Positions 28,051 to 47,246 of a stretch of DNA of 64,000 nucleotides are shown piece after piece. Position numbers and translations under genes: made by a program. The first letter of the stretch is position 1; every line of letters starts with the position of its first letter. Where the stretch lies: the NCBI RefSeq assembly GCF_030012175.1, contig NZ_JASCXW010000006.1, forward strand, positions 1-64,000. Reading direction: 5' to 3'. The notes under the pieces were generated by a model, which made no database searches, was not told where the DNA came from, and saw only the letters and a program-made list of their open reading frames with translations. The stretch comes from Peloplasma aerotolerans (GTDB lineage: Bacteria; Bacillota_I; Bacilli_A; Acholeplasmatales; Acholeplasmataceae).

Positions 28051-31000
28051 TTATTCAACAGGTGAGTCGTTGAACAAACTAAGTTGATATCCATAAACAT
28101 CTTGACTTAATACAAGATTGTCAATGATAACACCACCTTCATTCATGTGGAATCCTATCACTTGTAATCCACCTAAGTTTGTTACATATGCTGATAAATC
28201 GATTGTAACAGTTACAAAATCAGCACTTACATCAGATACAACACCATCAGTGACTAGTGTGTCCCAGTAAACGATATTGCCATCTCCAAGTTCTAATCTA
28301 AACTCATCTGCATTATTACCTGCATCTAATTTTACATCAAATGTGATGAACTTGCTTCCTGCTATTAAAGGTGAACCAAATCTTAGAGTTGCGTAACCAT
28401 CAGTGACTAGTTCAATAGCTCCATCAGTTACTAACGCCCATTCACCCCACCAATATTTAGATCCATCATTTACAGGTGTAGTTTCAAAATCTTCTTCTAA
28501 TAGAGGATACATACCATGATCATCATCTAACCATTGGAATGCCAAGTTGTCAATATATAAGATTGCACCATCATTTGCTTGTATTCCAAACTCATCAGCA
28601 AATGGTAATCCAGATAATGCAACATCAACAACGATACGTGCTGTAGATCCAACACTTGGTAATACGATAGGATTGCCATCAAGGCCAATCAGCTCATCGT
28701 TCCATTTGTGTGTACCACCAACATTAAGACCGAAACTACCTGCAGCTTCTACTTTTATATCAAATGAAATAAACTGAGGAACTCCCATAACGCCTGTATG
28801 ATATTGTACATAACCAGCTGATCCATCAAGTTTTAACATCATGTTGCCTTCAACTTCTACAAATGATGATGGTGTTCCATAGTTCGAAGCCCAATATTGG
28901 CTTGGACCGTGTTGACCATTAGCATCACCTTCAGCTAAACCATCCCATGTACCCCATAATAATTCACCATCGTAATGAGGTAAAGCATTAAACCATGCGA
29001 TGTTATCAAGTAAATAGATTTCACCATCACTTGCATGGAATCCAATTGTATCAGTAAGATCTAATCCACTTGCTACCCAGTCGATGACATATCTATGCCA
29101 TTGACCGTCTAAATTAACAACCATTGGTGTTCCATTTTCTAATATAAGTTCACCATCTTTAGCCCATAATGGAGCGCCAGTTGGTCCAACTCTAAAGGAA
29201 ACGATTGTTCCAGGTGTTGTCACTTTAAGATCAAATGCTAAGTAACGACCAGTTCCCATTGCTGCTGTATGATATTGTGCATAACCAGTTCCATCTAATT
29301 GTAGAGCTTGGTTATCATCACCATCTGCTACGATTGTAGTTGGTGAATCATATACGTTTGCCCAGTATTGTTGATCACTAACTTTTCCTTGAGCAGTTCC
29401 TAATTCTAAGCCTTCAAATGTTGCCCACATAAATTCTGAAGTTGTATCTAGTTGAGAAATAGGATTTGCAAAGAAGATTGCATCAAATGAAATGGATGAA
29501 CCTGTGTAGTATAAGTTAAATCCTGAGAAATCTGTTGTATAACCTTCTGTTAAAGTCAGGTCAACAATTAGATACGTCCAATCACCATCAACATATGGAT
29601 AGGATCCCATATCTTCAGGAATTGAAGGTAATCCTAAACCAGCTTGCCACTGGTTTGCATATACAGTTGGACCGTTAGCATCGTTAGAATCTATTTGCTG
29701 AAGTCTCAAGTTATCAAGTGTTCCAGTATCATTTAACTTATATTTAAATACCAAATATCTGTATTCATTCATATTTGCTTTTGATACTGATGTAACAGTG
29801 TAACTTACAAAATCTCCACCAGTTGAATCAAATGTTATAGCACCATCACCAATCGATGACGCAAATAGTCCAGAATAAGAAATAAGATATGTAAAACCAT
29901 TATTCAAAGCCACTTCATTATCGCCTGACCAAACACTCGTTGTACCAATTGTTGGACGACTGAAGTTATCATAAATCAAAGGTTGTTCTAGATTTAATAC
30001 TGGATATTCAACAGCTTCATAAACGCCTAGATAAGATAGGAATGCTAATGATATTGCAACATCAGTTGCACCTTCATTAATAAGTTTATAACCAGCAATA
30101 ATATCTGAACCATCGTAGATGTCTTCATATGGAATCGTTACATTTAACCAACCACTACCTAATGCTGTTGGTAATCCATCGATATCGGCAAATGATGTCG
30201 CTTCGCCTACAGTTCCATTTTCAAATATAGGAGCAACACTTAAATCATTGATGTCTAGAAGTCCAGGTGAAGCTTGTCTAAGTCTTAAAACAAGGTGTGT
30301 GTTATCTGGATTTACATCAGTGTCAATGAACTCTCCATAATGACCATCAGGTTGAATAGTTACATAAGTTCCAACTTGAACACCTACAGTTCCACTCCAA
30401 TAATCTTTATTTTGATTATAGTCACTACCTTCATATGGGAAAATTGGATTTGGAACTTTTGAGTAATAAGCATCTTTAAGTTCTAAAATACCACTACCAT
30501 CTCCAGAGATGTTCATTAAATGGAACCCAACGATCTCGCCTGATGCTGGAACATTTGCATGTCCTGTTTTACCAATAAATTCTTTGCCATCTAATGTGTC
30601 AGTAATGCTAATGACATAATTATGCCAATTCTCATCAAGTTCTCTAACATTATTTTCTAAATCGGGATCAAATGTATCCGTGAAAGGTATAACTAATACT
30701 TCGCGGTTATCATCTAGTCTAAATCCAATCGCTAAATCTTCAACAGATGCTCCAGCAAATCCTCTTAATCTTATTACAAGATATTGGAATGCTGATGTAG
30801 CAGCATTAGCGCTACCTGCTTGTTTCCATAAAGCACCGTCTGGATTGTTTCCAATTGTACCTGAATAACCAACCGAAATATAAGGTTGATCAGAATCAAT
30901 TGATGCATTTAATACGATTTCAGAATCAATAGTGTTTGCTGTAAAAGCATTAATCAGTTGATCGAAATCAGAGTTGTATACTCTACCTTGATATAGTGGT

Positions 31001-31539
31001 GAGTCAGGAATGCCTAAAAATGAATATTTAGCATAAAGTTCGATATTGCTATTCACTGGTGCAGAAAAATCATAAGCTACACCATTTAAGAGCCACCCAT
31101 TAAATGAGAATGCTGCCTTTTCAGGTTGAGTAGGCTCTATAGCTTGATCACCTGCATCTACAATCTGTGATGATACTGCAGTTCCGCCAACTGAATTAAA
31201 GGAAACTGTATACTCTGTTTCAACAACAACTTCAGTGTATTTAGCAACCAACGTAATGTTTGCTGTTACAGGTGTTGAAAACACATAAGCATCATCACCT
31301 AAGAACCAATCATTAAATGTATAACCTTCTTTTGTAGGGTCTTGAGGTCTTTGTACTGTGTTACCTTCTTCGACTTCAACAGTAACTGGAGTTGTTCCGT
31401 TATCTGCATTAAATGTCACAGTAAATGTTGTTGGAGTTTCCGTAGGAACAGTCGGATCTTCCGGCTTACAGCTGACCAGTAAAAGCACAGTCAGTACCAA
31501 AAGAAACGTTCGAAAAATTTGAATACTAATTTTTTTCAT
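28051..31539 (-). CDS. Giant multi-module glycan-binding lipoprotein
   Basis: 1162 residues. Lipobox VSC (Cys 24), a Thr/Pro-rich spacer, then two InlB/Listeria-Bacteroides type beta repeats (about 38-105 and 108-178, each with TFNDWF or SFNGWL and a closing KY). The rest is a series of beta-rich modules of about 140 residues. The last three are visibly alike (shared QYWA, QYHT, DNIAW/DNLAF signatures). No catalytic motif is recognised. It is probably a surface carbohydrate-binding protein that holds polysaccharide for the neighbouring glycosidase and importer, a role comparable with SusE/F. RBS region TCTCC complement precedes the start. Confidence 0.75.
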   Translation of the reverse strand: MKKISIQIFRTFLLVLTVLLLVSCKPEDPTVPTETPTTFTVTFNADNGTTPVTVEVEEGNTVQRPQDPTKEGYTFNDWFLGDDAYVFSTPVTANITLVAKYTEVVVETEYTVSFNSVGGTAVSSQIVDAGDQAIEPTQPEKAAFSFNGWLLNGVAYDFSAPVNSNIELYAKYSFLGIPDSPLYQGRVYNSDFDQLINAFTANTIDSEIVLNASIDSDQPYISVGYSGTIGNNPDGALWKQAGSANAATSAFQYLVIRLRGFAGASVEDLAIGFRLDDNREVLVIPFTDTFDPDLENNVRELDENWHNYVISITDTLDGKEFIGKTGHANVPASGEIVGFHLMNISGDGSGILELKDAYYSKVPNPIFPYEGSDYNQNKDYWSGTVGVQVGTYVTIQPDGHYGEFIDTDVNPDNTHLVLRLRQASPGLLDINDLSVAPIFENGTVGEATSFADIDGLPTALGSGWLNVTIPYEDIYDGSDIIAGYKLINEGATDVAISLAFLSYLGVYEAVEYPVLNLEQPLIYDNFSRPTIGTTSVWSGDNEVALNNGFTYLISYSGLFASSIGDGAITFDSTGGDFVSYTVTSVSKANMNEYRYLVFKYKLNDTGTLDNLRLQQIDSNDANGPTVYANQWQAGLGLPSIPEDMGSYPYVDGDWTYLIVDLTLTEGYTTDFSGFNLYYTGSSISFDAIFFANPISQLDTTSEFMWATFEGLELGTAQGKVSDQQYWANVYDSPTTIVADGDDNQALQLDGTGYAQYHTAAMGTGRYLAFDLKVTTPGTIVSFRVGPTGAPLWAKDGELILENGTPMVVNLDGQWHRYVIDWVASGLDLTDTIGFHASDGEIYLLDNIAWFNALPHYDGELLWGTWDGLAEGDANGQHGPSQYWASNYGTPSSFVEVEGNMMLKLDGSAGYVQYHTGVMGVPQFISFDIKVEAAGSFGLNVGGTHKWNDELIGLDGNPIVLPSVGSTARIVVDVALSGLPFADEFGIQANDGAILYIDNLAFQWLDDDHGMYPLLEEDFETTPVNDGSKYWWGEWALVTDGAIELVTDGYATLRFGSPLIAGSKFITFDVKLDAGNNADEFRLELGDGNIVYWDTLVTDGVVSDVSADFVTVTIDLSAYVTNLGGLQVIGFHMNEGGVIIDNLVLSQDVYGYQLSLFNDSPVE

Positions 31540-31615
31540 ATTTTCTCCTTACTCATGTATGATAGTTTACATGATTCTCTATTTTAATGGCTACTATCAG
31601 CCTTTATTAAAACCT

Positions 31616-34438
31616 TTATTCGTAAATACTTATTTCTGAAAATTGTGCACCAAATCCACCTGGTGCGGTATTTGCTGTAACGATGAAGATGATTGAACGC
31701 ATTTCCACTGAGTTAGGCAATGTGATGGATATCATATTACCTTCACTACTATCAAACAAGTAGTCCCTTGGTCCTTCAAATAAGTTTTGCCAATTTGTAG
31801 AATCAAAACTTGTTTCTGCACTAGTTGAATATTTAATCTCAATGGTTTGTGTACGAGGTGGCCAACTTGATAATGGTGGTAAGTGAAGATTAATAATGCG
31901 AACATCGCGTACTGCACCCATATCTACAATAATCCAACCTGGCCATAAGTTCTTTCTAGATTCAAAATATGTCATCACATCACCATCTGTTAATCTTTCG
32001 GGATTATAAACATCTTCATAAGGACTCGCGATAGGTGTTCTACCAAACGTTAATGAAGCTGGATAAAACTCAATATATCTTAAGAATGGACTGTTTGCAT
32101 AGATTGCACCTTCATAATTATGGAATCTTAATTGAACTGCGATGTAGTCTCCTGGAGCTAAACGAATATCAACATAATTATTCTTAGATGGAGAAAACTC
32201 ATAGTTTTCACCATTTAATCTTTTTGAGAACACTGGTAACCCTGTAGTTTGGCTAATCGTTGTTGCTGCGTAAACTGATATGTTTTGCGATTGGAAGTAC
32301 ATGGAATCCGTATCTCCATAAAGTCTAATGGAACCTACTTGATGTGCTTGATCAAACATGATGGATAATGCTATATAATCAGCTCTAGTTGCACTTGGCT
32401 CCCATGTATCAGCAATCCACATGGAGTCGTCATCTGTTAAAACATTCTCGACTTCAAATCCTGGAATATCGTAGTTAATGATTTGTGAACCTCCCCAGTC
32501 TTGTGTTGTTACACCATAAGTTGCACGCGCAGTAAAGTTACCTTCAATCTTTTGCCCTGCATAAGGTGGATCTACACGAGAAATTGAGAATTCAGGGATT
32601 TCAATTGCATCTTGAGATCTAGCTGGTATAACAACTTTATCAACAACATAGTAGTCACCTAGCTCTAGTTCATAATAATGATACACGTGTGCACCTGTAG
32701 GTGTGTTAGATGAAGTTACTTGAATGTTTGACACAAAGCTATTCGCGTTAATCTGTGATGCTGAAGTTATTGGAGCACCACGGAACTCAACATCAGAGAA
32801 ATAAATGTTTTGAATATTTTTTTGTGCATCAAATCCATTCATTCTAATAACTAGATTTGATGTGTCTTCACCAATCTTTTTATCGTTTAACACTTTGATG
32901 TTTTCAAAGTATACATCTTTAATCGTTCCTCTAACAAACTGTGATTTAGACCAATCTGCATTATATGCAATGGTTAGATCAATAAAGAAATCATCATAAG
33001 TTTCTGTCCAAATATCACCAACTTGATAACTGTTTTCTATCGTAATATTTTTAAAGTGAATATCACTAATCGCTGCTTGATCAGCATTATGAATGCTCAT
33101 CACAGCTTTATGGTAATTATGTAGAACTGTGATATCTTCAAAGACAACATGCTCAATTTTTTCACCATGTGTTTCATAACCAACTTCCATAGACTGTGCT
33201 AAATCAGTCCATAAAATATTGTTTGAGAATACGACATTATATGTTGACTTGTTATTCACGTTTTTAACAACGAGTGAGTCATCCCATGTTCTAATAAATG
33301 AGTTTCTAACGATGACATCCTCACAAGATTGAATGGAAACACCATCCCCGTTAGCTCTAGCAGTAACAATCTTGATATTATCAATAACGATGTTTTTAGA
33401 TTCCTGTGCATGGATCACCCATCCAGCAGGATCCAAGAATGTAATACCTTCAATATATATGTTTTCACTTCTTTGTAGTTCTACGGGAATTGCACGTTGT
33501 GCAGCTTCTTCTCTAGGATAGATAGAACCTGAGATTATACCTCGTCCACGGATCGTTACATCTTGTAATTCGTACATATTAAACTGTCCATAAACAAGAG
33601 CTCCACCAGCTATGTAAACTGTTTGACCCGATTCAACTGGAATCGTATCTGTTTTCCAAACACCAGGGCCTATGTAAATAATGTCATCATCTAAAGCTGC
33701 TTGTTCTGCAGTAATTGGATGTTCTTCAATTGGATTTGCAAACAAGTGAATCGCTTCTTGGATAACTGAACCATTAGGTGTTGTTTGCGGTACTGGGTCA
33801 TTTAACTGAATCGTATAGTTTGCTGGATATTCTAAGTCAAATTCAATGGTGTTACCTGTAATCGTTACTTCAATATCATAAGCTAACGGATGCACAGATG
33901 CTTTAGTAACGACATAATCATCTAAAATATTGATTTTAACATTGACTTTACCCAAAAAATCAAAGCTTGCTACAGATGTGTATGTGTTAGGCTTAATCCA
34001 TGTAAAACTTCTGGCATGATTAACTAATGTCTCATGTACAAATAATGGAGATTCTTCTACTAAAATTTCATATCGATCAGATGATTGTAGAATATCTGGC
34101 ATATCGTAGATGATTAACTCAGTAGATGTTTGCACACCAAACAAAACATTAATCGAAAAAGATGCAGTAGCATCTAAATATGAGATAACAACAGTTGATT
34201 GACCAACTGTTGATGTATTAAATTGAGTAACATCATAATCAGTGACAACTTCTTCTTGGTCACCAACTTTATATGTCACAACCATACCCTCTGGATCGAA
34301 TGTTTGATTCAGATAATATGATGTCTTATATGTCCCTGAAATGATTAGTTCAGGTTCAGTTGTACTTTTACAACCCATTAACATGAATGCTCCAAGTATG
34401 ACCAAAGTAGCTATCATAATTTTATTTATATATTTCAT
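31616..34438 (-). CDS. Surface beta-helix glycosidase, clan GH-N-like (GH49/GH28 type), with C-terminal discoidin domains
   Basis: 940 residues. Lipobox MGC (Cys 23); a bacterial Ig-like domain (about 30-100); a beta-sandwich; then a right-handed parallel beta-helix (about 240-590). This holds ANGDGVSIQS, RTWDDSLVVKN and SMEVGYE, placed like the catalytic Asp cluster and conserved blocks of GH49 dextranases and related GH28 enzymes. Two F5/8-type (discoidin, CBM32-like) domains follow. First gene of the operon. Alpha-glucan cutting (dextran-, nigeran- or pullulan-like) is inferred from the fold and the GH65 context; the exact family is not certain. Confidence 0.72.
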   Translation of the reverse strand: MKYINKIMIATLVILGAFMLMGCKSTTEPELIISGTYKTSYYLNQTFDPEGMVVTYKVGDQEEVVTDYDVTQFNTSTVGQSTVVISYLDATASFSINVLFGVQTSTELIIYDMPDILQSSDRYEILVEESPLFVHETLVNHARSFTWIKPNTYTSVASFDFLGKVNVKINILDDYVVTKASVHPLAYDIEVTITGNTIEFDLEYPANYTIQLNDPVPQTTPNGSVIQEAIHLFANPIEEHPITAEQAALDDDIIYIGPGVWKTDTIPVESGQTVYIAGGALVYGQFNMYELQDVTIRGRGIISGSIYPREEAAQRAIPVELQRSENIYIEGITFLDPAGWVIHAQESKNIVIDNIKIVTARANGDGVSIQSCEDVIVRNSFIRTWDDSLVVKNVNNKSTYNVVFSNNILWTDLAQSMEVGYETHGEKIEHVVFEDITVLHNYHKAVMSIHNADQAAISDIHFKNITIENSYQVGDIWTETYDDFFIDLTIAYNADWSKSQFVRGTIKDVYFENIKVLNDKKIGEDTSNLVIRMNGFDAQKNIQNIYFSDVEFRGAPITSASQINANSFVSNIQVTSSNTPTGAHVYHYYELELGDYYVVDKVVIPARSQDAIEIPEFSISRVDPPYAGQKIEGNFTARATYGVTTQDWGGSQIINYDIPGFEVENVLTDDDSMWIADTWEPSATRADYIALSIMFDQAHQVGSIRLYGDTDSMYFQSQNISVYAATTISQTTGLPVFSKRLNGENYEFSPSKNNYVDIRLAPGDYIAVQLRFHNYEGAIYANSPFLRYIEFYPASLTFGRTPIASPYEDVYNPERLTDGDVMTYFESRKNLWPGWIIVDMGAVRDVRIINLHLPPLSSWPPRTQTIEIKYSTSAETSFDSTNWQNLFEGPRDYLFDSSEGNMISITLPNSVEMRSIIFIVTANTAPGGFGAQFSEISIYE

Positions 34439-36151: not shown

Positions 36152-37690
36152 TTAATTAGATAATCTTATATACTCAATTAAATCAATTAAATCACTTGAT
36201 TCTTGTGAAACCAGTGTGTAATCGACTGGTATACCATATTCAACATTATCACCTAAATGATTTGAAAAATGAAAGGCAAAAGGCACATAAAGGAGCATCC
36301 CACCAGGGGCGAAAAGTACATCAACATGACTTGATCCACCACTAGACTTTTCTCCAATAATTATTACATCTCCATAAGTTTTCGCATATAATGTAAAAAT
36401 ATTAGCAGCACTGTAAGTCAAAGCTGAGGTTTTGATATAAATGTCTTGATTAAGTCTGTTTATGTTTGATTCAAAATAATAACTGTGCATTCCTGATAAA
36501 GTATGATGTTTTAAAGTTGTGGGTATTATTCCATCAATAACATAGGGTAGCATATCCATCATCGCATACATATAACCACCTGGATTACACGTAAAATCGA
36601 TAACGACATCTGTTGTCTGATTTCCAATATACAAATCCTTTTCATAGGCAAAAACTTCTGCTGTATAGGTATCAAATTCATTGACAATTAATAAAGTGAT
36701 TGTTGAATTGAGTTGTCGAGATAAATTATTTTCACAATATGCCTCAAAAACCTCTTCTTGTTCTATGTTTAATTGTGTTCTACCTTTATATTGATAATCA
36801 TCGTCATCAAAACTATAACTTCCACCATAGTAACCTTCGAATACAAGATGCATGTGCATATCATCAAAATCTTTAACTAAAAAATCTATAGTTTGATAAA
36901 ACGAATTGTTATTTTCACTAAGTGTTTCCTTGAGTGGAGCAAATAGATTTCTATATTTATACGGTTCTGGTGAAAAATTCAAACCATAAAAATAATCATA
37001 GTAAAAACCTAAAAAATCTATGATGTGTTTTTGTAAGTCCTGTGGCATGGTTTGACTGATGTAACGTAGAGGAAAATCAACAAACTCAATATCTGCGTTA
37101 ATTGCGAATAGTGCAACTCCATTAAAGTAGAGATTTGTTTGAAATCCGCTAAATAGTAAATTTGCAAGAACTAAAGGTAAATAGTATTCTTCTTGGTAAA
37201 TAATTGGAGTAAGATTATAACCTCCTAAATCTAAAAGAACAGCGTCCGAAAACTGATGAGATTCAAGATTATAGTCTTCTGTTAGATAATAGTAATCAGG
37301 ATAGATCAAATCTCCATCAAGAAAATATAAAAACTCGATATGGTTTAACTCAAGCATTTTGGTGTCTAATTCGTAATCCACTTTAAAATTTTTTTCAAGG
37401 TTAGGTTCGATATATGATATTGAAAAACCTTCAGTATCACTTTCATATACGTAGGATTCGATAGATAAGTAAGCTGGTAATAAATCTAATAGGGTTGTGA
37501 TTTCAATAAAGGGAACTTCTTCTTGTTCGTCAAAATACAAAGGTATTTTTTTATTGTCTATCACTTCATTAATGTAATCGTAAAAATCCACATTGACTAG
37601 TTTGTTTTTGCGTGGTGGGTAAAGCATTGAGCAAGCTGCTAATGATATGACGATGGATATTGCGAAAATGAGGATAATTATTTTTTTCAT
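36152..37690 (-). CDS. S41 (tail-specific) peptidase-like lipoprotein
   Basis: 512 residues. Lipobox LAAC (Cys 20). The C-terminal third has the S41 core: VVIDFTCNPGGY (as in IDLRxNxGG) and TSALTYSAANIF, where the family's catalytic Ser sits, followed by GEKSSGG. No PDZ domain is recognised. It is an exported protease or a degenerate relative acting at the cell surface. No clear ribosome site precedes the ATG, which is unusual here. Last gene after the SDR and possibly in the same transcript (80-base gap). Confidence 0.72.
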   Translation of the reverse strand: MKKIIILIFAISIVISLAACSMLYPPRKNKLVNVDFYDYINEVIDNKKIPLYFDEQEEVPFIEITTLLDLLPAYLSIESYVYESDTEGFSISYIEPNLEKNFKVDYELDTKMLELNHIEFLYFLDGDLIYPDYYYLTEDYNLESHQFSDAVLLDLGGYNLTPIIYQEEYYLPLVLANLLFSGFQTNLYFNGVALFAINADIEFVDFPLRYISQTMPQDLQKHIIDFLGFYYDYFYGLNFSPEPYKYRNLFAPLKETLSENNNSFYQTIDFLVKDFDDMHMHLVFEGYYGGSYSFDDDDYQYKGRTQLNIEQEEVFEAYCENNLSRQLNSTITLLIVNEFDTYTAEVFAYEKDLYIGNQTTDVVIDFTCNPGGYMYAMMDMLPYVIDGIIPTTLKHHTLSGMHSYYFESNINRLNQDIYIKTSALTYSAANIFTLYAKTYGDVIIIGEKSSGGSSHVDVLFAPGGMLLYVPFAFHFSNHLGDNVEYGIPVDYTLVSQESSDLIDLIEYIRLSN

Positions 37691-37770: not shown

Positions 37771-38508
37771 TTAAGCCAATCTACCACCATCAGTGATAAA
37801 CTCACTACCAGTAGAAAAACTTGAATCATCACACGATAAAAATAAAATCATTTGAGCGACTTCTTCAGGTTCTCCACCGCGTCCAAGTGGTGTATCTTTC
37901 ATCGCTTTTTCTTTATATTCATCACTAATGTGATCTAATGTCATTGGTGTATTGATAAATCCTGGATGGACTGAGTTGACTCTAATATTCTTGCTAGCGA
38001 AATCTAGTGCTGCACTTTTGGTCATCCCTCTAACTGCAAACTTAGATGCATTATATCCCATTAGACCTGCTTTACCTCTAAAGCCAGATGTCGAGGAGAT
38101 GTTAACAATAGCTCCTCTACCCACTTTTTCCATGGAAGGATAAGTGACCATCATACCAAGATATACCCCAAACTGATTAATCATATATAACTTATGGAAA
38201 TCTTCATCCGTATACTCTTCCAAGGACTTTTGGATAACGATACCTGCATTATTAATAAGAATACTCACAGGTCCAAAAAGCTTCTCAGTTTCTTTTAAGA
38301 CGTGTTCCCAATCTTTTCTAATGGATACATCATGATGCATATAGATTGCTTTATCTCCTAAAGATTTTGCAAGTGCTTTCCCTTTATCATCTTGAACATC
38401 TGTTAAGACTACAAATGCTCCTTCTTTAATAAATAATTGTGCAGTCGCGGCACCTATGCCTTGTGCTGCACCTGTAATGATTGCTACTTTATGATCAAGT
38501 TTACCCAT
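37771..38508 (-). CDS. Short-chain dehydrogenase/reductase
   Basis: 245 residues. NAD(P) motif TGAAQGIGAAT, the NNAG strand motif, and catalytic Ser/Tyr/Lys (NISSTSG, YNASK). Belongs to the classical SDR group that includes 3-oxoacyl reductases and alcohol/steroid dehydrogenases. It lies downstream of the LuxC/LuxE genes, so reducing or oxidising the fatty aldehyde or alcohol produced there is plausible; that is inference. Confidence 0.9.
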   Translation of the reverse strand: MGKLDHKVAIITGAAQGIGAATAQLFIKEGAFVVLTDVQDDKGKALAKSLGDKAIYMHHDVSIRKDWEHVLKETEKLFGPVSILINNAGIVIQKSLEEYTDEDFHKLYMINQFGVYLGMMVTYPSMEKVGRGAIVNISSTSGFRGKAGLMGYNASKFAVRGMTKSAALDFASKNIRVNSVHPGFINTPMTLDHISDEYKEKAMKDTPLGRGGEPEEVAQMILFLSCDDSSFSTGSEFITDGGRLA

Positions 38509-38577
38509 TATTCATCACTCCTTGTTTTATTACTATCATTATATCATGTTAACCATTTCGTAAAGTGGTCTAGAATC

Positions 38578-39594
38578 CTAAAATAAAGCTTTATCTCTAT
38601 CTGTTTTTTCTTCTAAAATCAAATTAAAAGGTAATGTAATTTGATGATATAAAATATCAACACCTTGATTATTGATGATACCAATACCAGTCATTCTAAA
38701 ATGAACATCCATTGTCTCACCTATTGCATCATGTGCTAAGTGTGATGCAATATCTCTTCTCAAAGCAAATAATGCCCTTTTAGACTCCATGCCTTGATAT
38801 TCATGCTTCAAAAGTAATGATAGTCTTTCTTCAAATTTAACTTTCTTTTGATATGATCCCACTGCTACAAAGCAAAAGTATTCATCGCTTTGATCAATCA
38901 CTACGATATCATCATTAAGCGCAACACTATCAGCTTTTTGTTCTTTCAATATTATACCATTTAATTGATCTTTAAAATCGATTGTTATTGAACTTTTCGT
39001 TTTCATTTTTTGAATAATTTCTAGTTCTCTTTCGAAAAGTGATTTGTTATAAGTCTCAAAATCGTCTATCCTAACATCTGGACACAATGGATCTATTGGT
39101 AGAGAAAACTGTAATGCTAAGCAAACTCCTTGTTTTGCTATCATGTCTAAATACATATCCCATAGATATTCTCTATTTTCCTTTTTACGATCATGCATAA
39201 GATGCACAAGTAGTCGTTGAATGAGCGTGATTTTTTGATAATTAGTTCCTTCATCAGATTTCTTTATTGATTCAACGATATGAACAAACCTATCATACGT
39301 TTGATCATCTAAATTGAACGTTTGTTTAATTGTAGAAAAACAACGTCCTACTTGATAGGGTCCATATTCAATCAATTCTAATGAATCTAAATCAACATCA
39401 ACATCTCCCCATCCTTCTAAATCAGATTTGAATATTTTGATAATATCTTCTTTTTGATAGCATAATTCACCATTCGAAGTTCCTATAAGTACCGGTAATT
39501 CTTGGTTTTGATAAAGCTCTTCAACAAATACCTCTATCGCTTTTAAATCTCTACTTTTATATAAAGCTTTAATCTTTTTAAACTGTGTTTCCAT
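38578..39594 (-). CDS. SnoaL/NTF2-like protein of unknown function
   Basis: 338 residues. Two segments (about 5-100 and 230-335) look like SnoaL/NTF2 cone folds, e.g. DDIVVIDQSDEYFCFVAVGSYQKK; the middle is helical. The similarity is structural guesswork with no active-site residues assigned. It sits 17 bases after luxC, clearly co-transcribed, so it may bind a lipid or the acyl intermediate. Confidence 0.55.
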   Translation of the reverse strand: METQFKKIKALYKSRDLKAIEVFVEELYQNQELPVLIGTSNGELCYQKEDIIKIFKSDLEGWGDVDVDLDSLELIEYGPYQVGRCFSTIKQTFNLDDQTYDRFVHIVESIKKSDEGTNYQKITLIQRLLVHLMHDRKKENREYLWDMYLDMIAKQGVCLALQFSLPIDPLCPDVRIDDFETYNKSLFERELEIIQKMKTKSSITIDFKDQLNGIILKEQKADSVALNDDIVVIDQSDEYFCFVAVGSYQKKVKFEERLSLLLKHEYQGMESKRALFALRRDIASHLAHDAIGETMDVHFRMTGIGIINNQGVDILYHQITLPFNLILEEKTDRDKALF

Positions 39595-39611
39595 GTTAAT
39601 TGTCTCCTTTT

Positions 39612-40880
39612 TTAATCAATAAACTCAACGATTTTAGTATACTCCCTTAAAGCATAGGTGCCATCGTGTGTTTCACCTACATAAAACCTTGCCATGTCTT
39701 TAGGTTTTGTGATACGTATTAAACCTGCTTGTAACAATTTACCTGTTAAATCAAATACGTCATTTTGTCCACATAAAAGACCAGCAGTTTGTAAATGGTT
39801 TTTATGTGGTTTAACAACTTTGACAATCTCATTTCTATTTAGTCTTTTAACCCATACATTTCTAAATAGCATTGATAACTCAAGCTTTTGATCATCGCAA
39901 GCAATCACCGATACACCATCTTGATGGAATATAGTTTTATGAGATTGATGCGATTCTAGGTTTTCAAAATATAAGGTAATTGTATTTTTACCTCTCATAC
40001 CAATCGATACTTGTTTATGTTCTTTACTCACTTTAAGAAAGATATCAAAAAATCTTTTAGCAAATAAATCTAACGCTTTACGATCATCGGTGTCAACAAA
40101 AATCCCTTGACATGATGAACATAAAAGTTGATTGGTTTCACAAATGTGATGCGCTAAACCTGCTAAATCTTCATCTTTGGCATCTGGTGTTGCATATGCG
40201 AAAGATAATTTGTGTCCCCAAGCAATAACTTTAGCATCTATTGGTGCCATTTGTCGTGCTGCTGATACTGCTGCATCACCACCCCAAACAACAATCCCAT
40301 CTGACATACCTGCAAAAATCTTTAATGTTTCTATTTCAGTTGATGGGACATCAAAAACATAAATGAAATCTTTTAATTTCGGTTCAATATCAATAAGCTC
40401 TTTTAATAACTGAACTGATAAACCATTATCACCACTTGGTAGTTTTAAGATATTGATATTCCCTGCTAATAAACCTTCGACAACGCTATATGCAGGAAGC
40501 GCATCAACGTTTCCTGCAGCGATATGAAATAAAATCCCTAAAGGCATAATCTTTCTTTTGCTATCTTCGATATCACTTAAGTTTTGATAATCTTCGCCTA
40601 ATTCAGTTTTTACCTTTTTTTCTAATGCATCTTTTTCAAACATTGAAATATAATGCTCAAATTGTTCAAATGGGATATCAAGTGTTGCAAGTGAAGGGAG
40701 AATGGTTTCGTTATAATCACCATTTCTTACCTTTTTAGCAATTTGATCACATGCTTCAATTACATCTTTTGCTTCTATTTTTTTCATTAGGGATAAGGTT
40801 TGATAACAATCTTCTTTTAATGATTGTATTAACTCTTTTTGTTTTGAATCATCATAAACTGTTCCTTGATATAAAATCAT
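39612..40880 (-). CDS. luxC: LuxC-like acyl reductase
   Basis: 422 residues. Reduces activated fatty acyl groups to aldehydes with NADPH. It has the LuxC N-terminal signature IMPLGILFHIAAGNVDALP, a nucleotide-binding VVWGGD segment and the nucleophile region LLCSSCQGIF. The start at 40880 follows AGGGGGAAG; the longer frame upstream lies inside luxE. It overlaps luxE by 4 bases (ATGA). There is no luciferase (luxAB) or luxD in the window. Confidence 0.88.
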   Translation of the reverse strand: MILYQGTVYDDSKQKELIQSLKEDCYQTLSLMKKIEAKDVIEACDQIAKKVRNGDYNETILPSLATLDIPFEQFEHYISMFEKDALEKKVKTELGEDYQNLSDIEDSKRKIMPLGILFHIAAGNVDALPAYSVVEGLLAGNINILKLPSGDNGLSVQLLKELIDIEPKLKDFIYVFDVPSTEIETLKIFAGMSDGIVVWGGDAAVSAARQMAPIDAKVIAWGHKLSFAYATPDAKDEDLAGLAHHICETNQLLCSSCQGIFVDTDDRKALDLFAKRFFDIFLKVSKEHKQVSIGMRGKNTITLYFENLESHQSHKTIFHQDGVSVIACDDQKLELSMLFRNVWVKRLNRNEIVKVVKPHKNHLQTAGLLCGQNDVFDLTGKLLQAGLIRITKPKDMARFYVGETHDGTYALREYTKIVEFID

Positions 40881-42007
40881 TTGTCTTCCCCCTTCGACAT
40901 TAAAGCATCTGCTCCAGCTGCACATGTCACAATATCTTGTATACCAACACGACCGATGATTTCTAACCATGGTGATTTTTCTCCACATGGGCATGGTTCA
41001 TCATGTAATATACATAAGTCGTCTGTCATCACAGATTGTAGCGCTGTAGCATCAACCATTGGTGTTAATAGATTTAATAACCCCATTTGACCATTAGGTA
41101 TTTGCTCTAAAGTGTCAACATCACGAATTATAGCTCTTGCATAAACAGGAACATGGAAATGATGATGTCTACAGTCAACATATAGAATTGGATGTTCGAC
41201 TGCACCAAAGAATTCAACACAATTTGTGCTTGGTACGCCTAGGACTTCTTCAACTAATTCATAAAAGACTTGTTTATCAACTGCTTCAGTATAAAACTGT
41301 TTCCATCCACCACCGACAGTCACTAATGATTTTTTAGGCAGTTTTAATTTAATTCCCTCAGCTTTCATCTCTTTTAATAAGAAATAGGTATACGCTGGAA
41401 ACCCTAATGTTCTAACAGGAGTTTTTCCTTTAGATGCACTAATCAATGCTTGTTTAACTCGATCAAGATTGACTTCATAACCTTGTTTTGTCATTTCTAT
41501 AGCATAAGTTCTTTTTCTAGCTGGTGCCATCCATGTAAAACCATATGCAGTTTTTGCAATCCCCATTTTATTCTTTTTGCTAGGTTGATATCCAAATATA
41601 ATATATTTTGTCGGCCTTAGGCTCCATAACTTATGATATCTGCCTAAAGTGATCATCATCCATAGACCTCTTAACAGAGATCTAAAGTCAAGTCCAACTT
41701 GACTTCTAATACCTGTAGAAGTTCCAGAAGAGGTTGCTTTAACAAGCATTTTCTTCTTTGGCATTGAAAAGAGTTCGTGATGCTTATAATAAAGTGTTGG
41801 AATAAAAGGCATCTTTATTAAGTCATCCATTTTAGATATTTCATAAGGGTTGAATAGTGCTTGGTCATAGATCCTTTTGATATCTTGATTTTTTTCATAT
41901 TGAAAAACAGCATTTTCTTTCATTGATTTTACAAACAATGTTTCTGTTTTTTCTAAGTGATAAGGTTTCTTATATTTGAATAATTTTCTCACATATCGCT
42001 TTTTCAT
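40877..42007 (-). CDS. luxE: LuxE-like acyl-protein synthetase
   Basis: 376 residues from the ATG at 42007 (AGAGGG upstream; the frame reaches back to 42106 without a ribosome site). Activates a fatty acid with ATP and passes it to LuxC. It holds the adenylate-forming loop KATSSGTSTGIRSQ, VGGGWKQF, and a late CPCGEKSPWLEIIGRVG segment. The metal-ligand-like cysteine pair (CPCG) resembles distant phenylacetate-CoA ligases. Together with luxC it forms a minimal fatty-acid reductase. Confidence 0.87.
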   Translation of the reverse strand: MKKRYVRKLFKYKKPYHLEKTETLFVKSMKENAVFQYEKNQDIKRIYDQALFNPYEISKMDDLIKMPFIPTLYYKHHELFSMPKKKMLVKATSSGTSTGIRSQVGLDFRSLLRGLWMMITLGRYHKLWSLRPTKYIIFGYQPSKKNKMGIAKTAYGFTWMAPARKRTYAIEMTKQGYEVNLDRVKQALISASKGKTPVRTLGFPAYTYFLLKEMKAEGIKLKLPKKSLVTVGGGWKQFYTEAVDKQVFYELVEEVLGVPSTNCVEFFGAVEHPILYVDCRHHHFHVPVYARAIIRDVDTLEQIPNGQMGLLNLLTPMVDATALQSVMTDDLCILHDEPCPCGEKSPWLEIIGRVGIQDIVTCAAGADALMSKGEDK

Positions 42008-42386: not shown

Positions 42387-42848
42387 GTGTTAGAAAAAGT
42401 TTTGAATACCTACCCTAGGAATCCAGAATATCTAATCGAAATACTTCTGGATTTACAAAAAAGAAACTTGAATCACACATTTTCTGACGAAGAACTATCA
42501 GCTGTTGCGGATTATCTAAACATTCCACCGTCGAGAGTATCTAGCGTTATTTCCTTTTATTCCTTTTTTTCCATGAAACCTAAGGGAAAATATGTAGTTC
42601 AAGTATGTAAAGATGTTCCATGTTATTTGAACGATTCGTTCAATCTTTTTGATTTGCTTAAAAAAGAACTTGGAATTGATTTGGGTGAAACCTCAGAGGA
42701 TGAGCGTTTCACATTAGAAACATCTAGTTGTTTGGGTTGTTGTGATATGTCACCTGTTATGCGTATTAACAACAAAGTTTATGGCAATCTTACAGCGAAC
42801 AAAGTAAAAATTATATTATCTGAACTCAATGGTGACAATCATGATTGA
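42387..42848 (+). CDS. hydC: NuoE-like [2Fe-2S] subunit of hydrogenase
   Basis: 153 residues. Thioredoxin-fold ferredoxin with the cluster ligands Cys 74, 79, 115 and 119 (CxxxxC, CxxxC). Starts at GTG with AGGGAGA eight bases before. It transfers electrons between the NuoF-like subunit and the [FeFe] hydrogenase. First gene of a three-gene operon; overlaps hydB. Confidence 0.92.
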   Translation: MLEKVLNTYPRNPEYLIEILLDLQKRNLNHTFSDEELSAVADYLNIPPSRVSSVISFYSFFSMKPKGKYVVQVCKDVPCYLNDSFNLFDLLKKELGIDLGETSEDERFTLETSSCLGCCDMSPVMRINNKVYGNLTANKVKIILSELNGDNHD

Positions 42849-44109
42849 GCAAAGACTAATAACCAGTAGAATCGGAAAAATAGATCCGTTTCTCATTGAA
42901 AATGTTTTGGACCTTAATGGTTATGAGATGTTTAAAAAAGCTTTAAAGATGGACCGTCTAGATATTATAGATGAGATTGAAAAATCAAAGCTTCGTGGTC
43001 GTGGTGGAGCTGGTTTTCCTGTATCTATCAAACTGATTGCTCTTGCTAAAGAAAAAGACTTCCTAAAATACCTCATCTGCAATGCTGATGAGGGAGAGCC
43101 TGGAAACTTCAAAGACCGGTACTTGATGGAGAACGATCCTCATCAAATACTTGAAGGTATGCTAATAGCTGCCTATGCAACACATGCAACTAAAGGATAT
43201 ATTTATATTCGTGGTGAATTTGATCACGCTATATCAATAATGAAAAATGCATTAAAAGAAATGAAATCTCATCATCTTCTAGGTGATAATATTTTAGATA
43301 CTAAGTTTTCTTTTGATATTGAAATACGATCTGGTGCAGGTTCTTATGTCTGTGGCGAAGAATTTGCTCTTCTAGAATCTATTGAAGGTAAAGCGGGACG
43401 TACACGCGTTAAACCACCTTTCCCTACATCTAAAGGACTTTTTGATAAACCAACACTAATTAATAATGTAGAGACATTCGCCACAATACCTGTTATTTTA
43501 AAAATAGGAGGACAAGCATATTCAGAAATAGGAACTCCTTCTTCTACAGGCACTAAATTAATCAGTTTATCTGGGAATATAAAAAACAAAGGTGTATTTG
43601 AAATTCCATTTGGTATTTCAATACGGGATGTTATCAAAAAACTTGGTGGTGGTGTTCCAGGAAACCGCAAAATCAAAATGGTTCAATTGGGTGGTGCTTG
43701 TGGTCCGATGATTCCTGAATATATGCTAGATATGATTATCGATTTCGAAAGATTTGAAGAGTTCGAGTCGAAAACTGGTGCAGGAGCTATTATCGTCATT
43801 GATGATCGTTTTGACATGTTTGATCTTTTGGTTCGTATATCTGAATTTTTTGCTCATGAATCATGTGGTAAATGCACACCATGTCGAGAAGGAAATTTTC
43901 AATTAATTAATACCCTTAAGAAATTTCAAAACAAAGAAGCAACAGAAAAAGATTTGGTCAGTTTGGAATCACAAGCACGTGTAATGCACCAAACATCTTT
44001 ATGCGGATTGGGACAAACAGCACCTACAGCCATCATCTCAACACTTCACTTTTTTAGATGGGAATACATCAATCGAATTGAGCATTCCTTAACTAAGGAG
44101 GTCTCATAA
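42829..44109 (+). CDS. hydB: NuoF-like NADH/FMN subunit of hydrogenase
   Basis: 426 residues. NADH and FMN sites (RGRGGAGFP around 56-64; CNADEGEPG around 84; GSYVCGEE) and a [4Fe-4S] motif SCGKCTPCREG. It is shorter than the ~600-residue HydB of Thermotoga; the extra N- and C-terminal ferredoxin domains are missing. ATG at 42829 or 42841 are both possible; the second overlaps the hydC stop as ATGA. Proposed to oxidise or reduce NAD(H) in the complex. Confidence 0.93.
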   Translation: MVTIMIEQRLITSRIGKIDPFLIENVLDLNGYEMFKKALKMDRLDIIDEIEKSKLRGRGGAGFPVSIKLIALAKEKDFLKYLICNADEGEPGNFKDRYLMENDPHQILEGMLIAAYATHATKGYIYIRGEFDHAISIMKNALKEMKSHHLLGDNILDTKFSFDIEIRSGAGSYVCGEEFALLESIEGKAGRTRVKPPFPTSKGLFDKPTLINNVETFATIPVILKIGGQAYSEIGTPSSTGTKLISLSGNIKNKGVFEIPFGISIRDVIKKLGGGVPGNRKIKMVQLGGACGPMIPEYMLDMIIDFERFEEFESKTGAGAIIVIDDRFDMFDLLVRISEFFAHESCGKCTPCREGNFQLINTLKKFQNKEATEKDLVSLESQARVMHQTSLCGLGQTAPTAIISTLHFFRWEYINRIEHSLTKEVS

Positions 44110-44110
44110 T

Positions 44111-45832
44111 ATGCCGAATTTGAAAATAAACAATGTTAACATTAGTGTATCAGAGGGCTCAACTATACTTAATGCAGCAAAACAAAACAACATCAACATC
44201 CCTACATTATGTTATTACCCTGATTTAAATATCAAAAGTGATTGTAGAATTTGTGTCGTTGAGATTGTTGGTCAAAAAGGGTTAGTCACTTCTTGCTCAA
44301 CAGTTGTCAAAGAAGGTATGCAAATTCTAACAAACTCTCCTAGAGCACTCAATGCAAGAAAAACAATTACAGAACTTATCCTAGCAAATCATGATGCAAA
44401 CTGTACATCTTGTGTTAGAAATATGAAATGTGAGCTGCAAAAATTAGCCAATACGCTTGGTATCGATCACAATCGATTCCCCTCAGTATTAGAAAAACTT
44501 CCAATTGATGACTCCAACCCTTCTATTGTTAGGGATCCAAATCGTTGTATAAAGTGTGGTCGTTGTATTGATGTCTGCAAAACCGTTCAAGGTATTAGTG
44601 TGCTTGATACAATGGGGCGTGGTCATGACATGCAAGTAACAACTGCATATCATAAATTGTTGTCTGATGTCGTTTGTACATATTGCGGGCAATGTGCGGC
44701 TGTTTGTCCTGTTGGGGCAATCCATGAAAAAGACGATACTGATCGTGTTTGGAGTGCCATTCATGATACGAATAAACATGTCATTGTTCAAGTTGCCCCT
44801 GCAATACGTGTTTCATTAGGTGAGGAACTCAATTTAAGTTTCGGGAGTATCGTGACTGGCAAACTGATTGCTGCACTTAAAATGCTTGGTTTTACCAAGG
44901 TTTTTGATACGAATTTCACAGCTGATTTGACGATTATTGAAGAAGGACACGAACTCATCGATAGAATCAAAAAAGGTGATACTCTTCCTATGTTCACTTC
45001 ATGTTGCCCTGGATGGATTAATTATGTTGAACAAAAACATCCAGACATGTTCAAACATCTGTCTACATGTAAATCACCTCAACAGATGTTTGGAGCTTTA
45101 GCAAAAAGTTATTATTCTCAACGTGAAAATATTAAGCCTGAAGACATATATGTTGTATCCATTATGCCCTGTACTGCCAAAAAATACGAGGCACAACGCA
45201 CAGAGATGTCGGTCAATGGAATAGATCCTGATGTTGATGCGGTTTTAACAACAAGAGAACTTGCTAAAATGATTAAACAAATGGGTATTGACTTCAACAG
45301 TCTAAGAGAAATGCGCTTTGATAAACCAGATGAAGTTACTAGTGGTGCTGCTGCTATCTTTGGAGCGACTGGAGGTGTAATGGAAGCTGCACTTAGAACA
45401 GTTATAGAAATACTTGATGAAAAACCTCTTGATTCCATTGAATTTGATAAAGTCCGAGGTATGGGCGGTATTAAAGAAGCTGGGGTCACAATCAAAGGTG
45501 AAACCATCAAAGTGGCTGTTGCTCAAACGCTTTCTAACGCTGAAATACTTATTCAACAAGTCAAAGCTGGAACATCACCTTATACATTTATTGAAATTAT
45601 GGCATGTCCTGGAGGATGTGTTGGTGGTGGTGGACAACCTTATGGTACGACACATCAAGTGAGTATTGAACGTATTCATGCAATCTATCAAGTTGATCGA
45701 TTGACCTCTATTCGAAAGTCTCACGACAACGCTGCTGTTTCAAATCTATATGAACATTACTTAGGTGCACCTCATAGTGAAAAAGCACATCATTTGTTAC
45801 ACACGCATTATACAAATCGTAAAATACTATAA
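44111..45832 (+). CDS. hydA: [FeFe] hydrogenase large subunit, bifurcating (A3) type
   Basis: 573 residues. A [2Fe-2S] domain (Cys 34, 45, 48, 62), a His-Cys3 cluster (His 94, Cys 98, 101, 107), two [4Fe-4S] sets (146-156, 189-199), then the H-cluster domain: TSCCPGW (Cys 298/299), MPCTAKKYE (Cys 354), MACPGGCVGGGGQP (Cys 499, 503). All catalytic ligands are intact. With HydB and HydC it should form the NADH-ferredoxin coupling hydrogenase. RBS AAGGAGGT. Its HydEFG maturases are not in the window. Confidence 0.95.
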   Translation: MPNLKINNVNISVSEGSTILNAAKQNNINIPTLCYYPDLNIKSDCRICVVEIVGQKGLVTSCSTVVKEGMQILTNSPRALNARKTITELILANHDANCTSCVRNMKCELQKLANTLGIDHNRFPSVLEKLPIDDSNPSIVRDPNRCIKCGRCIDVCKTVQGISVLDTMGRGHDMQVTTAYHKLLSDVVCTYCGQCAAVCPVGAIHEKDDTDRVWSAIHDTNKHVIVQVAPAIRVSLGEELNLSFGSIVTGKLIAALKMLGFTKVFDTNFTADLTIIEEGHELIDRIKKGDTLPMFTSCCPGWINYVEQKHPDMFKHLSTCKSPQQMFGALAKSYYSQRENIKPEDIYVVSIMPCTAKKYEAQRTEMSVNGIDPDVDAVLTTRELAKMIKQMGIDFNSLREMRFDKPDEVTSGAAAIFGATGGVMEAALRTVIEILDEKPLDSIEFDKVRGMGGIKEAGVTIKGETIKVAVAQTLSNAEILIQQVKAGTSPYTFIEIMACPGGCVGGGGQPYGTTHQVSIERIHAIYQVDRLTSIRKSHDNAAVSNLYEHYLGAPHSEKAHHLLHTHYTNRKIL

Positions 45833-45920
45833 ATTTATTAAATGAACAAAAGTGAATAAATTCACTAGGGGCGATTAAAATCGCCTTTTCCTTTTTAATA
45901 TCACGCTGTATAATAGATTT

Positions 45921-47246
45921 ATGGAACCTATAGTGATTAAGTATAAGTTTAAAGATCAATTAGAACTTGCTGCTAAGCATGGTGAGCATGTCTTTAACAA
46001 TGAACTTGCTAAACTATCTAATCTAAAAGTATATAGAGATGATTCTGCTTCCATTCAATCTATATTTGCCACCTACTGGGATTCATTTAAACTTCATTTT
46101 GAAGATAAACTACGTCCCTCAATTATCGAAAATGTTGAAAAGATGATTCATTGTCGTGATTTTAAGTATGGCTACTTCTTTTATGAATGCCCAACTTGTG
46201 ATAACTTTCATATTCAAGGCCTATCTTGTCATTCAAGATTTTGTCCTTCTTGTAATCAAAAATATCGAGAAGAGAGAACACTTGCTATTGAATCCAAATT
46301 ACTTAAGTGTCCTCATAGACATTTTGTTTTTTCAATTGCTCAAGAGATGCGTAAATATTTTTGGCTTTATAGAGACTTATTTGATATCTTATTTCAAACC
46401 GTAAATGAAGTCCTTCATAAAGCTGTTAAGAAAACGAAAGCTGACCTTCAATTAGATAGAAAACTTGGGATTATTTGTTTTCTTCATACCTATGGCAGAG
46501 ATATGAAGACTAATCCTCATATCCATGCTTTGGTTGCTGAACGCTTTATTGATGCTAACGGTCGTATATCTAACATGTCTTTCTTTCCCTTTGAGCGGCT
46601 TCGTAAGTTTTGGCAATATAGACTCTTAAATAACATCTCAGCTTATTTAAAAATCCATGCGACAAAATCTATCTATAACGAGTTTAATCGCTTAAGAAGT
46701 TATCTCATTCATAAGTACAAAAAAGGATTTTATGCTTATGGACCTCAATTAAAAAGAAAGTCTAGTTTGTCTACCGCCAAAAAGATTGCTAGATACATCG
46801 CTAGATATGCTTCTCATCCAGCCATCGCTGAATCTAGAATTGATGACTTTGATGATATCAATCACCAGGTCACTTGGCACTTTGATCCCCATGAAGATGA
46901 TAAAGTTTTCGATAAAAATCATAAACGAGGCACACAAATTATCAAGGATCACGTCTTTAAATTTATGGCGCGTCTCATTAAACACATTCCTGATAAAGGA
47001 TTTCATCTGATTCGTTATTACGGCTTTTATTCAAATCGGACAAAAAGAAAAATTGCGTCTGAGTTAAAGTTAATTAACCCTAATTCTATTGCTTATCTTA
47101 AACGTCAACTCCACTTTCGAGCTTTGATACTTAAGACTTATCACTATGATGTCTTTAAATGTCAATGTGGCTCTACTATGGTTTTAAATCTTCATGCTTC
47201 ATATCTACCAAATCACAGAAAAGAGAGGTTATTTAGTGATGCCTAA
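45921..47246 (+). CDS. IS91-family transposase (Y2 rolling-circle type)
   Basis: 441 residues. N-terminal zinc finger region (YECPTC, CHSRFCPSC), the His-x-His metal motif NPHIHALVAE and the tyrosine region YIARYASHP, as in Y2_Tnp/IS91 transposases. It should nick single strands at the element ends. The frame is intact and of full length, so the element may be active. A TATAAT lies in the left end just upstream of the gene. Confidence 0.93.
   Translation: MEPIVIKYKFKDQLELAAKHGEHVFNNELAKLSNLKVYRDDSASIQSIFATYWDSFKLHFEDKLRPSIIENVEKMIHCRDFKYGYFFYECPTCDNFHIQGLSCHSRFCPSCNQKYREERTLAIESKLLKCPHRHFVFSIAQEMRKYFWLYRDLFDILFQTVNEVLHKAVKKTKADLQLDRKLGIICFLHTYGRDMKTNPHIHALVAERFIDANGRISNMSFFPFERLRKFWQYRLLNNISAYLKIHATKSIYNEFNRLRSYLIHKYKKGFYAYGPQLKRKSSLSTAKKIARYIARYASHPAIAESRIDDFDDINHQVTWHFDPHEDDKVFDKNHKRGTQIIKDHVFKFMARLIKHIPDKGFHLIRYYGFYSNRTKRKIASELKLINPNSIAYLKRQLHFRALILKTYHYDVFKCQCGSTMVLNLHASYLPNHRKERLFSDA

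Follow-up and report, generated by a model that had tools for sequence, protein, structure and literature searches.

We propose that luxE and luxC homologues, the first two genes in a row of four, encode a two-subunit carboxylic (probably fatty) acid reductase which serves a purpose other than light emission and spreads as a pair, with a neighbouring short-chain dehydrogenase/reductase (SDR) and a SnoaL-like protein acting downstream; this reading we regard as probable, though by no means assured. The row lies on the minus strand of the window, i.e. the whole stretch of 64,000 nucleotides that was analysed. It comprises luxE (40877–42007; a predicted acyl-protein synthetase of 376 amino acids; Pfam PF04443, E = 8.1e-35), luxC (39612–40880; a predicted NAD(P)H-dependent acyl-thioester reductase of 422 amino acids; PF05893, E = 3.6e-63), the gene for a SnoaL-like (NTF2-type) protein of 338 amino acids (38578–39594; assigned to SnoaL_3 only via homologues) and that for a classical SDR (37771–38508; PF13561, E = 6.8e-60). 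The luxE frame starts with an ATG at 42007, with GAGGG ahead of it, and its stop lies at 40877; the ATG of luxC at 40880 shares the ATGA at 40877–40880 with this stop, an overlap of exactly 4 bases. The intergenic gaps are 17 bases between luxC and the SnoaL-like gene and 69 bases between the latter and the SDR gene. A preliminary description of the sequence had given the same row, with the 4-base overlap, and is confirmed in this respect, the SnoaL assignment by way of a match of the homologue from genome G432. No RNA element or riboswitch was found ahead of luxE, the sites returned by a promoter scan were no commoner than chance and an alignment of the regions upstream of three luxE genes contained no conserved block that stood out. 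The genome of the window (G000) comprises 2.04 Mb in 88 contigs and is 99.6% complete.

Both proteins bear the signs of an intact reductase. LuxE reaches 120.9 bits against PF04443 (gathering score 24.9) and contains the adenylating P-loop SSGTS at residues 93–97, while LuxC reaches 214 bits against PF05893 (gathering score 21) and covers positions 3–399 of the 401 in the profile. In the alignment with chain E of PDB entry 7xc6 (E = 1.7e-20), Cys362 of LuxE falls on Cys364 of P. phosphoreum LuxE, the acyl-transfer site of that enzyme (PMC8301110). In the alignment of LuxC with chain A (E = 6.1e-13), Cys254 in QLLCSS is matched to QQACFS, the position at which the acylated cysteine of the lux reductase (Cys286 in V. 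harveyi; reference cited in PMC8301110) is expected. Cys362, Cys254 and the SGT of the P-loop are kept in all 16 sequences compared, including those of a Chloroflexota plasmid and a Streptomyces plasmid. Between the window genome and the sister species G004, dN/dS is 0.04 for luxE, 0.06 for luxC, 0.07 for the SDR gene and 0.22 for the SnoaL-like gene, at dS values of 0.85–1.24, which indicates that all four genes are under purifying selection and do not form a remnant. Because LuxE and LuxC retain the acyl-carrying cysteines of the luminous bacteria, they are very likely functional and reduce an acid to the aldehyde with ATP and NAD(P)H. The NCBIfam models specific for long-chain substrates are far from being satisfied (71.4 of 750 bits for LuxC against NF052251 and 91 of 550 bits for LuxE against NF052244), and a long-chain substrate is therefore not readable from the sequence.

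The pair is free of luciferase. Neither luxAB nor luxD was found in the neighbourhood of luxE–luxC, and no protein of the luciferase family (PF00296) in the nearly complete window genome, with a control search positive in 10 of 14 genomes. Among the 14 luxE–luxC genomes tested, 13 have no luciferase-family protein, and the remaining one (G046) carries its copy on a different contig from the pair. The presence of luxAB beside a homologous set, which the preliminary description had named as evidence against its interpretation, was seen at none of the 17 loci. Its statement that luxAB and luxD are absent stands for the neighbourhood and, as regards the luciferase family, for the whole genome; for luxD, the whole-genome search with PF02273 returned no match and its control search was equally silent.

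LuxE is sparsely distributed, with matches in 13 of the 392 genomes sampled from the phylum and strong matches (E < 1e-140) in ten of 160 genomes of the order, where the weaker matches are partial. Wherever the locus was read, luxC directly follows luxE on its 3′ side (17/17 genomes, counting the window), and the two are also adjacent on a Chloroflexota plasmid, where they likewise overlap by 4 bases. The flanking genes vary, and in an all-against-all comparison of neighbours no family other than the SDRs recurred directly beside the pair beyond the sister species. The conserved unit is the luxE–luxC pair and not the four genes. In a tree of LuxE and LuxC, G019, a member of the same genus, joins G215 and G346, which belong to another genus and another family, away from the window; monophyly of the genus copies is rejected (p-AU = 6.7e-5), as is that of the family copies (7.4e-5). 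Judged from these sequences, the pair moves horizontally as a unit, since the copies of the genus are rejected as a clade and its presence is patchy (10/160). The GC content of luxE (0.34) and luxC (0.32) lies, as does GC3, within the range of the whole window, so that transfer into this lineage was either not recent or from a donor of similar composition. In two species of one genus (L043, 532–8319; L044, 1632–9440), the pair is preceded by a series of large proteins together with four paralogues of 190–226 amino acids, and the L043 proteins that were scanned had no Pfam match.

The order luxE–luxC–SnoaL–SDR, which the preliminary description had proposed to look for in relatives, occurs in just two of the 20 genomes of the genus, those of the window and of G004. 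Gene order agrees between these two along the entire G004 contig used for the comparison, with the other shared proteins 83–98% identical, and owing to this general collinearity the shared order represents one inherited state that lends little support to a joint function. The SnoaL-like gene is missing beside the pair in 15 of 17 genomes, namely in G019, a fellow member of the genus, and in every lineage outside it. The four genes as a conserved module are accordingly rejected, as the two carriers are collinear throughout and the SnoaL-like gene is found at no other luxE–luxC locus. The earlier view of a fatty-acid reductase cluster thus holds for a luciferase-free LuxE–LuxC with intact active-site cysteines and fails for the four genes as a conserved set; the lack of joint conservation, which it had accepted as counting against it, applies to the SnoaL-like and SDR genes and spares luxE–luxC.

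The family of the 338-residue protein is visible through its relatives. The window protein has no convincing match of its own in Pfam, NCBIfam or the PDB, and searches of plasmids, viral contigs and solved structures gave no match. Against SnoaL_3 (PF13474; curated cut-off 22), the homologue in G432 scores 39.3 bits (E = 9.5e-10) and that in G408 scores 23.9 bits, the window protein itself being unmatched; SnoaL_3 matches at E values up to 1 were obtained for three of six family members. When the halves of the G432 protein were tested singly, the N-terminal half gave 4.9e-6 and the C-terminal half 0.005, under the cut-off. An alignment of the profiles of its two halves spans 114 columns and scores 28.9, whereas none of 100 column-shuffled controls exceeded 23.3. 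The protein is probably SnoaL-like with an N-terminal domain and a second, diverged copy of it. Thus it resembles the SnoaL_3 proteins of NTF2 fold in having a homologue above the curated cut-off and differs from them in its probable tandem of two diverged domains and in lying itself below detection. A single-sequence AlphaFold model had a mean pLDDT of 41 and was set aside. The SnoaL-like proteins of the window and of G004 are 64% identical, conspicuously less than the 83–98% of the other proteins shared by the two species, and a paralogue is present elsewhere in the window genome.

The SDR contains TGxxxGIG at residue 12, NNAG at residue 86 and the catalytic residues Ser138, Tyr152 and Lys156. 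Asp37 follows β2, and an aspartate at this position of an SDR is NAD-selecting, which suggests that the enzyme uses NAD(H). Its closest solved relatives are R-specific alcohol dehydrogenases and 3α,20β-hydroxysteroid dehydrogenases.

From what is known of catalysis by the lux fatty acid reductase (PMC8301110) and from the conserved residues, the following reaction steps are the most likely for LuxE–LuxC. LuxE would adenylate a free acid with ATP to give acyl-AMP and transfer the acyl group to its own Cys362, from which it would be passed to Cys254 of LuxC; NAD(P)H would then reduce the LuxC-bound acyl group to the aldehyde. In this branch of the genus, the SDR would most likely take the product further, converting the aldehyde to an alcohol or carrying out a ketone step, and the SnoaL-like protein may serve as an accessory to the SDR or as a product-binding protein. 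Two observations speak for a connection of the SnoaL-like protein to the SDR and of the SDR to luxE–luxC. Firstly, SnoaL-like paralogues in the window genome and in G014 directly adjoin an SDR gene, without lux genes. Secondly, in another genus a different SDR gene directly precedes luxE in G059, G529 and G535 and is missing in G624. The loci of that genus (L042, 8002–12224; L095, 4340–7756) have the order SPFH–SDR–luxE–luxC in three of four carriers, G624 lacking only the SDR between SPFH and luxE.

Alternatively, the row could be made up of two unrelated units, a mobile luxE–luxC and a SnoaL-like/SDR pair belonging to a detoxification or export-linked pathway. We consider this a serious possibility, albeit one on the lower side of even chances; it leaves the core of the explanation favoured here untouched and contradicts only the SDR and SnoaL-like steps. 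The SDR and SnoaL-like genes are missing beside most luxE–luxC pairs, the latter in all but two of the genomes, and SDRs are abundant, so that chance neighbours are possible. SnoaL-like paralogues occur without lux genes at TetR–SDR–SnoaL–ABC–FtsX loci, and some relatives are located apart from both lux and SDR genes. The SnoaL-like gene also evolves faster than the other three (dN/dS of 0.22 versus 0.04–0.07). Against a division into two units are the short gaps of 17 and 69 bases on a single strand and the second, different SDR adjoining luxE in another genus. The locus of TetR, SDR, tandem SnoaL-like protein, ABC ATPase and FtsX permease (L018, 9383–15152, on contig C15 of the window genome G000; L017, 6215–11948, in G014; TetR and the ABC ATPase named by inspection) shows the SnoaL-like family in another setting, which is retained in two species.

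The LuxC–LuxE complex of luminous bacteria (PDB entry 7xc6) shares with the window proteins both families, the acyl-accepting cysteines and the adenylation motif, and in it the two proteins act together. Compared with the luminous lux genes, luxD, luxA and luxB are lacking beside the pair, the order is luxE–luxC instead of C–D–A–B–E and the scores of the window proteins with the long-chain-specific NCBIfam models are low. LuxE and LuxC have already been reported from settings other than luminescence (PMC7874193; PMC4875605; PMC4772473). A LuxE homologue of the non-luminous Riemerella anatipestifer, AS87_03730, is likewise without an assigned substrate; it belongs to another phylum and its deletion reduced virulence (PMC4772473). 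The flagellin islands of Aeromonas and Enterobacteriaceae (PMC7874193; PMC4875605) belong to non-luminous hosts and, in the absence of luciferase, combine LuxE and LuxC with a ketoacyl-reductase (FabG-type SDR). They differ in their acyl carrier protein, AMP-dependent synthetase and glycosyltransferases, none of which directly adjoins the pair in the window. Our limited and partial search of the literature returned no report of luxE–luxC pairs in Mollicutes.

The occurrence of luxE and luxC in these flagellin glycosylation islands (PMC7874193; PMC4875605) bears on a further alternative, in which the acid that is reduced is small or hydroxylated, not a long-chain fatty acid, and is used for a surface glycan or specialized metabolite. 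Such a role has been put forward for proteins with a LuxE domain at O-antigen and flagellin-glycan loci, RfbN being an example, and in G046 the pair stands some 90 bases behind a run of nucleotide-sugar genes located ahead of luxE. Nevertheless, no glycan genes lie directly beside the pair here or at most other loci, and the authors who described the flagellin-glycan islands themselves suggest a fatty-acid component. We consider a glycan-related or specialized-metabolite acid plausible but rather unlikely as the substrate.

The preliminary description had also suggested plasmalogen-type lipids, and a supply of fatty aldehyde or alcohol for plasmalogens or alkyl-ether lipids would suit the aldehyde expected from LuxE–LuxC. 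ElbD, an ether-lipid protein of Myxococcus, indeed contains a fatty acyl-CoA reductase domain (PMC9131029). This suggestion is weakened by the distribution of DUF2229 (PF09989), which is absent from the window genome, G004 and G019 and was found in five of 14 genomes tested. We take DUF2229 to be the PlsA-type domain that marks the anaerobic PlsA/PlsR plasmalogen enzymes. Moreover, no acyltransferase or alkyl-DHAP-synthase-like gene was present beside the pairs among the neighbours scanned, and an ether-lipid role appears improbable. That the genes are a non-functional remnant of a lux operon, as the missing luciferase might imply, is rejected as extremely improbable on dN/dS (0.04–0.06 at dS near 1), the frames being intact and the cysteines conserved.

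The preferred reading, a paired acid reductase for a use other than light, points to the 'lux' acid reductase as a general-purpose enzyme exchanged among bacteria, with luminescence as one of its uses. With only two genes, the pair is a compact candidate for the direct reduction of acids to aldehydes, driven by ATP, in bacteria without luciferase, and its connection to a product can be tested through the recurring SDR partner. As a more speculative and only tentatively held extension, luxE–luxC may be a self-contained acid reductase that passes horizontally among anaerobic Bacillota and Mollicutes and to which different lineages couple an SDR of their own (here also the tandem SnoaL-like protein), leading to a lipid or small molecule, derived from an aldehyde or alcohol, that would be new to these bacteria.

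Beyond luxE, the plus strand (42387–47246) carries an operon for an NADH-type [FeFe] hydrogenase (HydA with a NuoE-like and, by inspection, a NuoF-like protein) and, after it, the gene of an IS91-type Y2 transposase; from the hydrogenase adjoining the cluster, the host is probably a fermenting anaerobe. This block sits between luxE and a GH18 gene. In G004, the orthologous GH18 gene adjoins luxE directly, and the hydrogenase block and transposase are extra in the window genome. The transposase in the window lies about 4 kb from the pair, and another of IS91 type (L039, 18416–19810) lies about 8 kb from luxE–luxC of G215; an IS91-type transposase is a possible carrier of the pair. On the other side of the row, an S41-type peptidase-like gene (36152–37690, minus strand) is placed between the SDR gene and that of a 240-residue membrane protein, and G004 has the same order without the peptidase. 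Further along the minus strand (28051–34438) are genes for large surface proteins, one of 1162 amino acids with Listeria–Bacteroides repeats and a second of 940 amino acids with GH28, F5/8 type C and Big_3 domains.
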